Assembly: GCF_018457165.1 (NCBI RefSeq)
Contig: NZ_JAFMNX010000001.1
Location: forward strand, 1,178,001-1,242,000
Direction of reading: 5' to 3'
From: Tianweitania aestuarii
GTDB taxonomy: Bacteria > Pseudomonadota > Alphaproteobacteria > Rhizobiales > Rhizobiaceae
Length of the DNA: 64,000 nt
Positions 32,356-43,302 of the stretch are shown here, in pieces (positions within the stretch are counted from its first letter, which is position 1; every line of letters starts with the position of its first letter). The translations under genes were made by a program, and so were the position numbers. The notes below the pieces were generated by a model. The model did not search any database and was not told the DNA's origin. It saw only the letters and a program-made list of their open reading frames with translations.

Positions 32356-32432
32356 GCACCCGTAGCTCAGCTGGATAGAGCGCTGCCCTCCGAAGGCAGA
32401 GGTCAGAGGTTCGAATCCTCTCGGGTGCGCCA
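32356..32432 (+). tRNA. tRNA-Arg (CCG), attachment site of element B
   Basis: A 77-nt cloverleaf with encoded CCA. The acceptor GCACCCG pairs perfectly with CGGGTGC. The anticodon loop CTCCGAA gives CCG. The T arm contains GGTTCGAATCC. Its last 48 bases are the left copy of the element B direct repeat, so the tRNA stays intact after integration. Confidence 0.96.
32385..32432 (+). repeat. attL, 48-bp direct repeat
   Basis: The 48 bases at the 3' end of tRNA-Arg, from the anticodon stem to CCA, are identical to 43255-43302. The flanking bases differ on both sides. This is the chromosome-side copy that keeps the tRNA whole. Confidence 0.95.
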
Positions 32433-32480
32433 ACAAAAACAATCACTTAGTTAAGCTTGAGGCAGGGGCGACAGGTTCGC

Positions 32481-32500
32481 TACTCACCATCTACTCACAA
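32481..32500 (+). repeat. Paired 9-bp repeats, candidate integrase arm sites (left end)
   Basis: TACTCACCA and TACTCACAA start 11 bp apart, 49 bp inside attL. The same motif with the same 11-bp spacing occurs inside the right end at 43108-43127. Confidence 0.6.
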
Positions 32501-32695
32501 AAGATGAGATGTTACCGCTGGTGCGCGGCAGTTCGATGCGACATGATCGCGACATGAAGCCAAGGGCCATCTGGAAGCCGTGACTTCCGGACAATCACGT
32601 TTCTCACATAAGCTGTGAATGATCTATCGAGCCTGATTGCAGTCGTGACTCAGATCCGGCAATGTCATAAATGCAGGGTGCGATACCTGCCCGAG

Positions 32696-32718
32696 AGGCC
32701 CTAACGGGGCCTTTTTTT
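32696..32718 (+). terminator. Rho-independent terminator
   Basis: AGGCCC and GGGCCT form a stem closed by TAACG, followed by a run of seven T. It points rightward and would stop read-through from tRNA-Arg into element B. Confidence 0.75.
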
Positions 32719-32744
32719 ATGCCGCTGTCAAAGGTGGATCCCGC

Positions 32745-32918
32745 ATGCTTTCCAGCATCTGGGACTTGCTTCCCTGGGACACGGTGCTTGATCTCTTCCG
32801 CATTGCAATCGAGCTTTACAAGCTGTTCCGACCGCAACCTGCCACGAAAAAGGCGGGTAATGGCGGCGCGCGCAGAGCTCGCACGCGGAAGCGCAAGCAT
32901 CGATCCAAGAAGCGCTAG
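32745..32918 (+). CDS. 57-residue basic protein
   Basis: This short frame starts at ATG 32745 (MLSSIWDLLPWDTVLDLF...). The first 30 residues form an amphipathic, aromatic-rich helix (DTVLDLFRIAIELYKLFRP). The last 20 are almost all Arg, Lys and Ala (ARRARTRKRKHRSKKR), suggesting nucleic acid or membrane binding. It lies just after the terminator, at the element's left end. Reality as a gene is supported only by its composition and position. Confidence 0.4.
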   Translation: MLSSIWDLLPWDTVLDLFRIAIELYKLFRPQPATKKAGNGGARRARTRKRKHRSKKR

Positions 32919-32928
32919 TTCCGCAAAC

Positions 32929-33336
32929 TCAACTGCAACTTCGTGGCACTGCTTGAGAGAGCGATGACTCACGCCCATATCCTGCCGCGGCTTCCCGCTC
33001 TGCCCGCTTCCTCGCCGCCTCGGCTGCCATCCTTCGAGCCGCTTCCATCTTCGTCAGATCTACCGGGCGCACATACCCGGCCGGCGGCTTCTTGATCGTG
33101 GTCCAGTGCTCGAACACGCGCCAGCGCACATGCGCAACGTGCTCATCTCCCACATAGAAGTCGCTCGTGTTCGCCTTTAGATGGTGCAGGCAGCGCGTTG
33201 GGCCCCAGACACGCCATATCTCCGCTTCCGGGGTGATGCGCGTCTTGTAGGCGCCCCAGCCCTTGCGTGATGATGGCTTTTTGCGATCTTGTTGGGAAAA
33301 GGGGCTGATCAGCTGATCGGCGTCGCGGAATGCCAT
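32929..33336 (-). CDS. Hypothetical element B protein
   Basis: The product has 135 residues from ATG at 33336; the frame is open further upstream but overlaps the divergent gene. The middle contains aromatic-rich strands (EIWRVWGPTRCLHHLKANTSDFYV). The C-terminus is a charged Ala/Arg/Glu helix (MEAARRMAAEAARKRAEREAA). No family recognised. It lies downstream of the tape measure gene on the same strand, separated by a small gene on the other strand, so it may be a cargo or tail accessory gene. Confidence 0.45.
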   Translation of the reverse strand: MAFRDADQLISPFSQQDRKKPSSRKGWGAYKTRITPEAEIWRVWGPTRCLHHLKANTSDFYVGDEHVAHVRWRVFEHWTTIKKPPAGYVRPVDLTKMEAARRMAAEAARKRAEREAAAGYGRESSLSQAVPRSCS

Positions 33337-33419
33337 CGCGGTCCATCCTGGTGATGTGCATGGATGGCTATATAGCTCGGCAAGGCTGTGCGCGAAATGA
33401 GGAACGGGGGAGAACATAC

Positions 33420-41263: not shown

Positions 41264-41283
41264 GTGATGTAGTCAAGCGCGTT

Positions 41284-41299
41284 ATGTCACGCGTGACAT
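41284..41299. promoter_or_regulatory. Operator copy 2, perfect 16-bp palindrome
   Basis: ATGTCACGCGTGACAT is a perfect palindrome 22 bp before the RHH gene start. Together with copy 1 (58 bp away) it forms a divergent control region. Confidence 0.7.
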
Positions 41300-41320
41300 C
41301 ATATTTATGGAATAACCTCG

Positions 41321-41827
41321 ATGGCGAAGAAAACGCTCGCTCGCGACCAGGATAAATTCATGCTGCGGCTGCCCGAGGGCATGCGCGAGCGTATCAAAGC
41401 CAAGGCCGATCGCGCCGGCATGTCCATGAACGAGGCGATCGTGTTCTGCCTCGACGCCTGGTTTCCCGCGCCTAAAACTCTCCAAGAGAAGATCAATGAG
41501 CTTGCTTCGCTGGTAGCTCTCTTGAAGAGGGGCAACGATCTGGAAGAGCAGGTCGATTCGCTGATCAGTGAAATAGACACCACCCTTCGCGAGGTGGCGG
41601 ACAATGTCCTACCAGCGTCGGAAGGCTTCCAATCCAGGGTAGTGCGCCAGATTGAGGAGTGGGACGAAGATGAGGCTCATCGACTAAACGACGAGGCGTA
41701 CAATCCTTTCGATGATGAGAACTATCCGACGGTCGGCGGCGTCCCGATCGAAGAACTCGACTACGAAGCTGGACCAAGCGACCCGGATGATCCGTTCTCG
41801 CTACCTCCGCGGAAGAAGAAGCCCTAA
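41321..41827 (+). CDS. Arc-like ribbon-helix-helix regulator of element B
   Basis: The product has 168 residues. Residues of about 12-50 form the RHH fold (DKFMLRLPEGMRERIKAKADRAGMSMNEAIVFCLDAWF). The central part is a coiled coil (about 55-105), and the C-terminal third is very acidic. It is the only rightward gene in this half of the element and is preceded by a perfect palindrome, so it is probably an autoregulated lysogeny regulator. The stop overlaps the convergent integrase by four bases. Confidence 0.82.
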   Translation: MAKKTLARDQDKFMLRLPEGMRERIKAKADRAGMSMNEAIVFCLDAWFPAPKTLQEKINELASLVALLKRGNDLEEQVDSLISEIDTTLREVADNVLPASEGFQSRVVRQIEEWDEDEAHRLNDEAYNPFDDENYPTVGGVPIEELDYEAGPSDPDDPFSLPPRKKKP

Positions 41828-43095
41828 GCCCGCCTCGGCATCTCCAACACCTTCGCCTCTATGCCTGTCATCTGCCGGTAGACCTCGCCAGCCACCTTGT
41901 TCGCAGCCGCCACAAGCACGCTATCCAGCCGATGGACATACTTGCTGGTGATCGTGCCGCCGGCATGGCCGAGCATAGCGCCGATGGTGCTGTCGGAATA
42001 ATCGAGATCAGCCGCGACTGATGCGAAGCTGTGGCGCAGCGTGTGCGCCGTGACACCTTCCAGATGCGCTCGCTTCATGATCCGCTCTATGCCCTTCTGA
42101 ATCGCGCCGAACGGTTTGCTTGGATCTCTGGAGCCCGGCAGTACGTAAACGGCGTCCTGGGCACGCGTGAGGCCGTCCAGCACGTTCACGGCGTCTGTCG
42201 GCAGCGGGCGGGTTGATGCGCCGGTCTTCGTGTCTCCTAGGCGCAGGACGTTGCCGTCGCGATCTACTTCCGACCATTTCAGCGAGGCTATTTCGCCCCT
42301 GCGGCAGCCCGTGAACGCAAGGAGCCATATCGCGGCTCTCACCTGCCACGGCTCATCATCGGAGGCTTCCAGCGCCTTCCCAAGCGCCTTGTATTCGTCA
42401 GCTGTCAAACGGCGGTCGCGTGAGCCGTCGGCGGGACGGGCGACGCCATGAACCGGGTTGGTAGGGATCACGCCTTCGGATACCGCATAGGTCAGGATGC
42501 CGCCGAGCAAGCCGGCTGTGCGCGTGGCTGTGCCGGCGCCGCCCTCGACCACGGACTTGCCGCGGAGCCGGCCGGTCTTCTCGACCTTTGCTGTCTTGCC
42601 GCTGGCAACGTCCCGGATTAGCCGGGTGATGTCAGCACGCGTCAGATCAATCACAAGCTTCTTACCCAAGAGCGGCTTGATGTGGCGCTCGGCGCGGCCG
42701 CGATCGATATAGAGGGTGGACGCCTTCTTCGGCTTCCGGCCCTTGCCAAGGATCAGGCCAGCGTCGGCCGCCTTGAAGTAGTCGTCGATCAAGTCTGCCA
42801 CCGTGAGCGAGGATCGGCGCGTGCGGCGCTCGAGGAGCGGATCCTGCTTCTGCAGCACGATGCCGCCGAGCGTCTGGATCGCCAGCTTGCGCGCCTCATC
42901 GGTCGTGATCGCGCCATGCTTGCCGATCGTCATGCGCCGCCGTGCTCCGTCGGCAGTGCGGTAGTCGACCATGTAGGTCTTCGAGCCGCCTGGATTGATG
43001 GAGACACCGAAGCCTTTTTGCTCGGAACACCAGACGGTGTATTGCCGGTCTTGTGGCTGGCTCTTGTCAACGATGGTCTTGGTGAGTTTTGGCAT
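41824..43095 (-). CDS. int: Tyrosine recombinase (element B integrase)
   Basis: The product has 423 residues. The N-terminal DUF4102-type arm-binding domain (KGFGVSINPGGSKTYMVDYR) is followed by a core-binding domain (about 95-215) and a catalytic domain with Arg265/266 in TGCRRGE, His351 and Arg354 in HTLRHS, His377 in LGHAGG, and Tyr386 in TSKYVH. All catalytic residues are present. It would recombine the 48-bp tRNA-Arg repeats. It starts 160 bp from attR, at the end opposite to the tRNA. Confidence 0.95.
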   Translation of the reverse strand: MPKLTKTIVDKSQPQDRQYTVWCSEQKGFGVSINPGGSKTYMVDYRTADGARRRMTIGKHGAITTDEARKLAIQTLGGIVLQKQDPLLERRTRRSSLTVADLIDDYFKAADAGLILGKGRKPKKASTLYIDRGRAERHIKPLLGKKLVIDLTRADITRLIRDVASGKTAKVEKTGRLRGKSVVEGGAGTATRTAGLLGGILTYAVSEGVIPTNPVHGVARPADGSRDRRLTADEYKALGKALEASDDEPWQVRAAIWLLAFTGCRRGEIASLKWSEVDRDGNVLRLGDTKTGASTRPLPTDAVNVLDGLTRAQDAVYVLPGSRDPSKPFGAIQKGIERIMKRAHLEGVTAHTLRHSFASVAADLDYSDSTIGAMLGHAGGTITSKYVHRLDSVLVAAANKVAGEVYRQMTGIEAKVLEMPRRA

Positions 43096-43107
43096 GCGGT
43101 GGGTTCC

Positions 43108-43127
43108 TACTCACCAAATACTCACCA
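43108..43127 (+). repeat. Paired 9-bp repeats, candidate integrase arm sites (right end)
   Basis: TACTCACCA occurs at 43108-43116 and 43119-43127, 11 bp apart, just upstream of the integrase start. The left end carries the same pair with one changed base. An inverted near copy (TGGTGAGT, 43080-43087) lies in the integrase start region. Confidence 0.6.
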
Positions 43128-43254
43128 CGAAATCGGAAACGTGAGAAGATGCCGGAAACCGCCAGGAATGAAGATAAACGGCTAACCCTATGATGTGGCT
43201 GACTTTAGAAAAGCGTGGAAAGTTTGCGCCCTTCTGCGAAAGCCGCTTGGGTTC

Positions 43255-43302
43255 GCCCTCCGAAGGCAGAGGTCAGAGGTTCGAATCCTCTCGGGTGCGC
43301 CA
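43255..43302 (+). repeat. attR, 48-bp direct repeat
   Basis: It is identical to the last 48 bases of tRNA-Arg (32385-32432). The 5' half of the tRNA is missing here, so this copy is not a functional tRNA. Confidence 0.95.

Follow-up and report, generated by a model that had tools for sequence, protein, structure and literature searches.

We analysed a 10.9-kb element bounded by attachment (att) repeats at a tRNA-Arg(CCG) gene of Tianweitania aestuarii, within a 64,000-nucleotide stretch of contig NZ_JAFMNX010000001.1 (positions 1,178,001 to 1,242,000; hereafter the window, on which coordinates are counted unless another locus is named). The element is very probably an integrative phage satellite that would use the terminase, portal and tail parts of a helper phage while supplying its own capsid shell and tail ruler. 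As judged from sequence, it appears to belong to a conserved satellite family, found here mostly in its own bacterial family (Rhizobiaceae-like), and it is probably mobile; a case can be made that its terminase and portal would be borrowed from the helper. An initial annotation had offered, as one of two readings, a satellite dependent on a helper for packaging and for other tail parts. That reading is supported by the recurrence of the element, the grouping of its capsid, selection on its genes and a sequence resembling a phage packaging site.

Results

Own shell and tail-ruler genes without a recognised portal or terminase

A repeat search of the window revealed two att copies on the plus strand, 10,870 bp apart and identical over 48 nt (48/48), at 32385-32432 and 43255-43302. 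The first copy forms the 3′ 48 nt of the tRNA-Arg(CCG) gene (32356-32432, plus strand; ARAGORN). Between them runs a minus-strand series of genes for an integrase, early proteins including a DUF1376 protein, orf93, an S78 prohead protease, an HK97-fold major capsid protein, a tail assembly chaperone (TAC), an HK97-gp10-like protein and a TMP_3 tape measure protein (TMP). The sole named gene on the plus strand encodes an Arc-like regulator. No internal stops were present in the eight frames checked (integrase, DUF1376, orf93, protease, capsid, TAC, gp10 and tape measure). Among the open reading frames (ORFs) of the element scanned with Pfam and PHROGs, seven smaller ones included, none matched terminase, portal, tail-tube, baseplate, fibre or lysis families. 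The initial annotation had described perfect att repeats, an intact integrase, uninterrupted genes for protease, capsid, a GTA-gp10-like protein, HK97-gp10 and tape measure, and no terminase, portal, major tail, baseplate, fibre or lysis genes. Each of these statements held up, given the two identical copies, the Phage_integrase match, the family matches with stop-free frames and the scans. Thus, the element is a discrete mobile unit with integrase and att sites, at a tRNA that holds another element in a genome of the same genus (G001; loci and genomes carry our own numbers, L and G), and it lacks genes essential for a virion, none being recognisable in the scans.

The structural genes all lie on the minus strand. 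The protease (38023-38856; 1.2e-30) is followed by the capsid protein (36818-38026; 3e-51), which falls in the first of two satellite capsid groups and has some 136 residues ahead of its conserved domain. Next come the TAC-like protein (36234-36605; Phage_TAC_11, GTA-gp10 family, 3.6e-16), the gp10-like tail completion or neck protein (35840-36232; 6.3e-9) and the 712-aa tape measure (33709-35847; 6.1e-48), the starts of TAC and gp10 being chosen by eye. The 192-aa frame previously given to the TAC is too long, as its start most likely lies near 36605, where we noted, by eye, GGAG ahead of an ATG; the apparent 5′ extension is non-coding, and within this gap lies the putative packaging site described below. 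The resulting order is capsid, TAC, gp10 and TMP, while the full phages RHph_TM3_3_14B, RHph_X2_25 and vB_MseS-P1 have capsid, connector, adaptor, gp10, terminator, tube, TAC and TMP.

Satellite tape measures spanned 560-738 aa (seven elements) and those of phages 601-1314 aa in 43 of 44 rows, the other row being a 276-aa fragment. Longer satellite versions occur in L286 (848 aa) and L287 (841 aa, from coordinates). In two linked satellite and phage pairs, the satellite protein was the shorter (633 vs 926 aa and 738 vs 805 aa). The idea that a satellite tape measure generally means a shorter tail was unsupported as a rule, since satellite and phage lengths overlap.

A putative packaging site shared with full phages

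The non-coding gap between capsid and TAC (36662-36755, minus strand) holds a putative cohesive-end (cos) or packaging site, a sequence of ~95 nt that resembles, by profile match, a stretch found in full phages immediately ahead of the small-terminase (TerS) gene. A profile built from 22 sites, the window excluded, scored 40 bits at 36755-36662 (5.7e-10), compared with at most 12.6 bits in 500 dinucleotide shuffles of the element. An earlier profile from five sites, three of them from satellites, had already matched the window (9.8e-6). A first regular expression for the site missed the window; only profiles detected it.

After two copies of the window were dropped, 34 profile matches at E ≤ 1e-3 were found in our loci (22 of the 34 had been used to train the profile, unlike the window). 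Of these, 28 lay just upstream of TerS or the large-terminase (TerL) gene as called by script, two did so by position (L220 and L236), four were in satellites (L041, L052, L053 and the window), and none occurred elsewhere. Seven further satellites (L282 and L284-L289) matched at E ≤ 1e-3, six of them upstream of orf93. Both in the window and in L053, where an HNH protein and a small terminase accompany it, the site lies between capsid and TAC; L290 and L291 have weak matches at that place. In genome G010, satellite and host prophage are 82% identical over 105 nt, at the stretch upstream of the prophage TerS. The HK97 small terminase is reported to bind a stretch near the cos cut, contacting a G and an A-tract (PMC11331095), and an HNH protein to stimulate that cut (PMC11331095; PMC9410871). 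We consider the region upstream of TerS, of which the window element appears to carry a copy, a putative cos site.

Two satellites lie in terminase genes. In G010, the satellite is inside a prophage TerL, with TerL residues 1-107 and 91-562 on either side, the prophage gene being disrupted for as long as the satellite stays there. In G365, a satellite is found at the end of TerL, before the portal, in an otherwise full prophage. These satellites have imperfect flanking repeats, of 26 nt (85%) and 21 nt (95%). The points that may bear on mobilisation by a helper are the packaging-site match and these TerL insertions.

The satellite gene set recurs in other genomes

We recovered 25 elements that carry a capsid gene and, by profile, lack both TerL and portal: 21 from 394 sampled genomes of the family and four from named contigs (L060, L063, L068 and L109). 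They are the window element, L041, L043, L046, L052, L053, L058, L060, L061, L063, L068, L109, L229, L281, L282, L284-L291, L293 and L296. The 21 of 394 are a lower bound, a minority of the other capsid matches in the family having been opened; the search of named genomes covered the best 80 of 261 capsid matches, in 79 loci. Terminase and portal were sought with our own profiles (E ≤ 1e-4), rechecked at E ≤ 0.01, and with Pfam on unassigned ORFs of at least 380 aa in the assumed spans, several of which had no Pfam match; of the smaller ORFs of the relatives, the scans covered a minority. These Pfam scans of large unassigned ORFs revealed no terminase or portal; the ORFs were of replication, cargo or no family, and the capsids of L041 and L046 were confirmed. 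The least certain elements are L060 (whose capsid is at a contig end), L068 and L284, and the span of L058 contains an IS1595 transposase. The initial annotation had named close relatives with terminase and portal at 38.7-39.1 kb as evidence that would overturn it; none appeared among the relatives opened.

A tape measure is present in 17 of the 25, akin to that of the window by profile in 15 and of other families in two (L229 and L068). Six of 20 family stretches examined around tape-measure matches had a capsid and tape measure without their own terminase or portal (L041, L043, L046, L052, L053 and L058), and four of these six have TAC and gp10 between capsid and tape measure. Another 20 stretches, around orf93, capsid and tape-measure matches, added 12 satellites and one repeat of an element from Ahrensia kielensis; the other seven were full phages, cf-PICI-like elements (after capsid-forming phage-inducible chromosomal islands, cf-PICIs) or unclear. 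The A. kielensis element (9862 bp, 51-nt att at tRNA-Phe) and one from Aureimonas flava (9311 bp, 51-nt att at tRNA-Thr) both encode integrase, Arc-like regulator, orf93, protease and capsid, without a tape measure. Pairs of att repeats of 21-67 nt bound 13 of the 25 elements, and pairs of 15-18 nt five more; the sites used are tRNA-Arg, Phe, Lys, Thr, Pro, Asp, Ser, Glu, Leu or Val, or a phage TerL.

We also examined the same tRNA in two other genomes. G001, of the same genus, carries there an 11.8-kb element with an integrase 90% identical to that of the window. Its structural genes encode a protease fused to a capsid, a tape measure of another kind and what may be a head-closure protein. 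Neither terminase nor portal was recognised in it, and a 67-aa ORF had a weak match to the TerS profile (0.004). One site thus holds different proteins in the window and G001, and it is therefore the combination of capsid plus tape measure that recurs there. In G002 we saw no satellite; the att core is present there once, with four mismatches, and the 5′ part of the tRNA region is matched a second time at a distance of 13 kb, the intervening genes being, by eye, for transport and metabolism. A search of related genomes for the same gene set had been proposed: similar sets do recur, but at this tRNA G001 carries different structural genes and G002 shows no satellite.

Satellite capsids group together while tape measures mix with those of phages

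In a capsid tree of 80 rows, 22 of them from satellites, satellite capsids formed two groups apart from phages, with two label changes. The group that includes the window has 15 rows (Shimodaira-Hasegawa-like approximate likelihood ratio test, SH-aLRT, 99) and the other has seven (SH-aLRT 93). L052 and L053, scripted as phage and flanked by helper genes, were relabelled satellite by hand, which brought the changes from four to two; the shuffled mean near 18 applies to the first labelling, with four changes. The 80 rows were drawn from 155 (20 satellite rows, a random phage set and named ones), with L113 and L117 dropped for unclear flanks, capsids of at least 560 aa trimmed to their last 420 aa, and those of L041, L046 and L229 left out as too distant. 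Sampling leans to satellites because relatives were gathered with a satellite alignment, and phages entered through the same query.

Tape measures behaved otherwise: a tree of 59 rows (15 satellite) required 11 label changes, against a shuffled mean of 13.6, and 27 of 500 shuffles were as low. Satellite rows were interleaved with phage and cf-PICI-like rows, and the window protein paired with that of the cf-PICI-like element L056. This tree used the first 420 aa; of 79 rows, 17 lacked clear context and were excluded, and taking out duplicate and short rows left 59, among which L068 and L229 are not included. Because capsids are grouped and tape measures mixed, the capsid is probably inherited within satellites and the tape measure exchanged with phages.

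The capsid and tape measure are under purifying selection. The ratio of nonsynonymous to synonymous rates (dN/dS, Nei-Gojobori) was 0.06-0.19 for the capsid (five pairs), 0.25-0.29 for the protease (two pairs) and 0.15-0.50 for the tape measure (five pairs), dS being close to saturation in most pairs. The initial annotation had proposed this comparison for capsid and tape measure.

Integration, regulatory and early genes

The 423-aa tyrosine integrase (41824-43095, minus strand) matched Phage_integrase (2.3e-19) and an arm-binding domain (2.2e-12). The Arc-like ribbon-helix-helix regulator (41321-41827, plus strand) is divergent from the early operon, and its relatives lie near the integrase in L060, L061, L063, L229, L281, L282, L286 and L288. 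A 77-aa ORF (40962-41195, minus strand), without a Pfam match, may by eye encode an AlpA-like DNA-binding or excision protein. The DUF1376 or primosomal-type replication protein (39131-39898, minus strand) was recognised by Pfam (1e-11) and PHROG (4e-11); four imperfect repeats with 12-nt spacing lie within its gene at 39460-39522.

The orf93 product (38853-39134, minus strand) is a helical protein without a fold match when its AlphaFold model is compared with PDB and BFVD. It has matches in 13 of the 394 family genomes, 11 of them at E below 1e-12, and lies upstream of a satellite capsid in 11 of those 13. We dropped the idea that orf93 is a small terminase or scaffold: the model is all-helical (mean predicted local distance difference test score 87.9), and nothing convincing was found in PDB or BFVD (none at E ≤ 0.001). 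A weak orf93-like ORF near another capsid (L264, 3476-3787; E 0.0018) possibly marks a distant satellite. The end region (32604-33701) holds three ORFs, at 32604-32978 (minus), 32929-33417 (minus) and 33330-33701 (plus), without a convincing family in Pfam or PHROGs scans.

Other genes of the relatives vary. L060 encodes a 921-aa tailspike-like protein after the capsid (1247-4012; pectate-lyase-like and tailspike Ig-like domains), and L058 a 428-aa tail-fibre-like protein in the interval between capsid and tape measure (7102-8388). Cargo includes a Y-family DNA polymerase (L061, 12327-13574), an NA37 nucleoid-associated protein with a RelA/SpoT-domain protein (L043, 11213-13308), a DUF4145 protein (L063, 12849-13634), a SIR2-like protein (L109, 8965-12753) and an alkyl-sulfatase-like protein (L284, 11144-13126). 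A separate compact type (L294, L295 and L300, also L049, L050, L056 and L059) has portal, protease, capsid, connectors and TerL directly before the tape measure. With no tail tube or baseplate gene found, it is cf-PICI-like with a tail ruler; L294 and L295 have integrase and tRNA genes near their ends. Genome G000 has a second capsid cluster (contig C1, about 873-879 kb; L003 and L004) with portal, protease, capsid, connector, adaptor, terminator, tail tube and TAC, which looks like a gene transfer agent (GTA).

Discussion

A model that accommodates these data is that the satellite would excise when a helper akin to vB_MseS-P1, or HK97-like, infects or is induced, and would replicate with its DUF1376 protein. 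Protease and capsid would form its own shell, and TAC, gp10 and tape measure its own tail-ruler set; both would assemble with helper portal, connectors, tail tube, terminator and baseplate. The helper terminase may then package satellite DNA because it recognises the cos-like copy. Over time, the capsid would be kept within the satellite lineage and the tape measure repeatedly swapped with phages, presumably because it must fit the tail of each helper. We lean, by a modest margin over even chances, towards a more specific proposal: that these satellites are a distinct family that replaces both size-setting parts of the helper, head shell and tail ruler, and is packaged by the helper terminase through the copied cos region. 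In that proposal, some members integrate in the helper large-terminase gene, so that the resident helper prophage should fail to package itself until the satellite leaves.

The second reading in the initial annotation, a newly deleted prophage, found no support. All structural genes are phage-like and each has a relative in full phages, as expected of a defective prophage with a recent loss of its terminase, its portal and most of its tail genes, but we judge this history very improbable. A fresh deletion is contradicted because similar sets occur in many genomes, in other genera and at different att sites; because the capsid belongs to satellite-only groups and not to the phage group; because selection is purifying and the eight frames checked are open, with no decay; and because the gap between capsid and TAC holds a sequence resembling the putative packaging site of full phages. 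Gene order differs as well, TAC preceding gp10 in the window whereas phages have gp10, terminator, tail tube and then TAC. A domesticated element such as a GTA is scarcely credible. The TAC does belong to the GTA-gp10 family and the host has an apparent separate GTA cluster elsewhere, but the element has an integrase and perfect att repeats, G001 holds a different element at the same tRNA, and stable presence at the locus across the genus was not seen in G001 or G002.

The most serious competitor, though clearly the less probable, is a satellite whose capsid-like and tape-measure-like proteins redirect or jam the helper head and tail and do not build a shell of their own. SaPIbov5, a Staphylococcus aureus pathogenicity island (SaPI), encodes a capsid homologue, Ccm, reported to occupy pentamers and redirect helper capsids (PMC8569155), and with no recognised portal the shell of the window satellite must start on helper parts anyway. 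The capsid has its own protease and some 136 residues ahead of the conserved domain, however, and a tail-ruler set is present. Less probable again is descent from cf-PICIs with secondary loss of portal and terminase. It would fit the cf-PICI-like elements with portal, TerL and tape measure in the same bacterial family (L294, L295 and L300), the pairing of the window tape measure with that of L056, and the three clades reported for cf-PICI capsids, among which a further clade would not be strange (PMC11389934). Satellite capsids nevertheless form two groups of their own (the rows compared included few cf-PICI-like capsids), and the packaging genes that define cf-PICIs are unrecognised in the window.

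Several observations weigh against an integrative satellite that is packaged by its helper and brings shell and ruler. By profile, 11 of the 25 elements lack a convincing match to the packaging site, and in three (L281, L290 and L291) the match is weak. In global alignment, a satellite site was not clearly closest to that of the co-resident phage: the L052 site was 66% identical to it, second to that of another phage, and for L282 the resident phage L108 was not among the best four site matches. The single large terminase that we searched for in the window's own genome, that of vB_MseS-P1, had no match there, so the helper would come from outside. No att pair was found in seven of the 25 elements, whose ends are therefore assumed. 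The nearest capsid relatives (L281, L060, L061 and L063) show no tape measure, which means that the satellite family can do without the tail module.

Among openly accessible papers, judged by title and the start of the abstract, we found no description of a satellite with its own shell, its own ruler set and a putative helper packaging site but neither portal nor terminase. Our data suggest that swapping of tail rulers may be common among Alphaproteobacteria and can occur in satellites that have a capsid of their own yet lack portal and large terminase; for phage-inducible chromosomal island-like elements (PLEs), chimeric satellite tails were reported only in 2026 (PMC12987554). A stable capsid lineage beside a mosaic tape measure offers a testable rule about what a satellite must own and what must match its helper, and satellites in helper terminase genes would provide natural helper-satellite pairs for study.

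The element shares features with several known systems. PLEs parasitise a contractile-tailed lytic phage, which sets them apart from the window element, and they remodel the helper coat protein into small capsids. The PLEs of Vibrio cholerae are reported to encode their own TAC and TMP and to make chimeric tails with helper parts, and some PLE-like elements to carry putative tmp genes (PMC12987554); the likeness to the window element lies in the presence of TMP and TAC genes. Like cf-PICIs, the window element is integrative and has its own capsid and protease, and some cf-PICIs also carry putative tmp genes (PMC12987554). As described, cf-PICIs bring their own portal, connectors, small and large terminase and HNH, and depend on the helper for tails only (PMC10690885), whereas own portal, connectors, TerS and TerL are unrecognised in the window element, which has a putative helper packaging site instead. 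The statement that known satellites lack tail genes is thus out of date, given the tail genes reported for PLEs and some cf-PICIs (PMC12987554). The further statement that this gene set is unlike known satellites needs softening, because PLE chimeric tails and tmp-bearing cf-PICIs exist (PMC12987554).

The cos-type SaPIbov5 uses the helper terminase through a cos site, as the window element may do, and resembles the element in its satellite-borne capsid homologue (PMC8569155; PMC10690885). It differs in that Ccm is reported to form no capsids alone, and that no SaPIbov5 protein other than Ccm was found in its capsids (PMC8569155). The Mulch and Flayer satellites of Streptomyces phages likewise have their own capsid genes, but small and large terminase and portal are described in them (PMC10690885). 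The phages vB_MseS-P1, RHph_TM3_3_14B and RHph_X2_25 have complete clusters of protease, capsid, gp10, TAC and TMP, with TMPs akin to that of the window, and vB_MseS-P1 carries the packaging-site sequence upstream of TerS. They are nonetheless full phages with terminase, portal, tube and baseplate, and in the capsid tree vB_MseS-P1 falls among the phages. In the window element, which has no recognised portal or terminase, a putative helper packaging site goes together with genes for a shell and a ruler set of its own.

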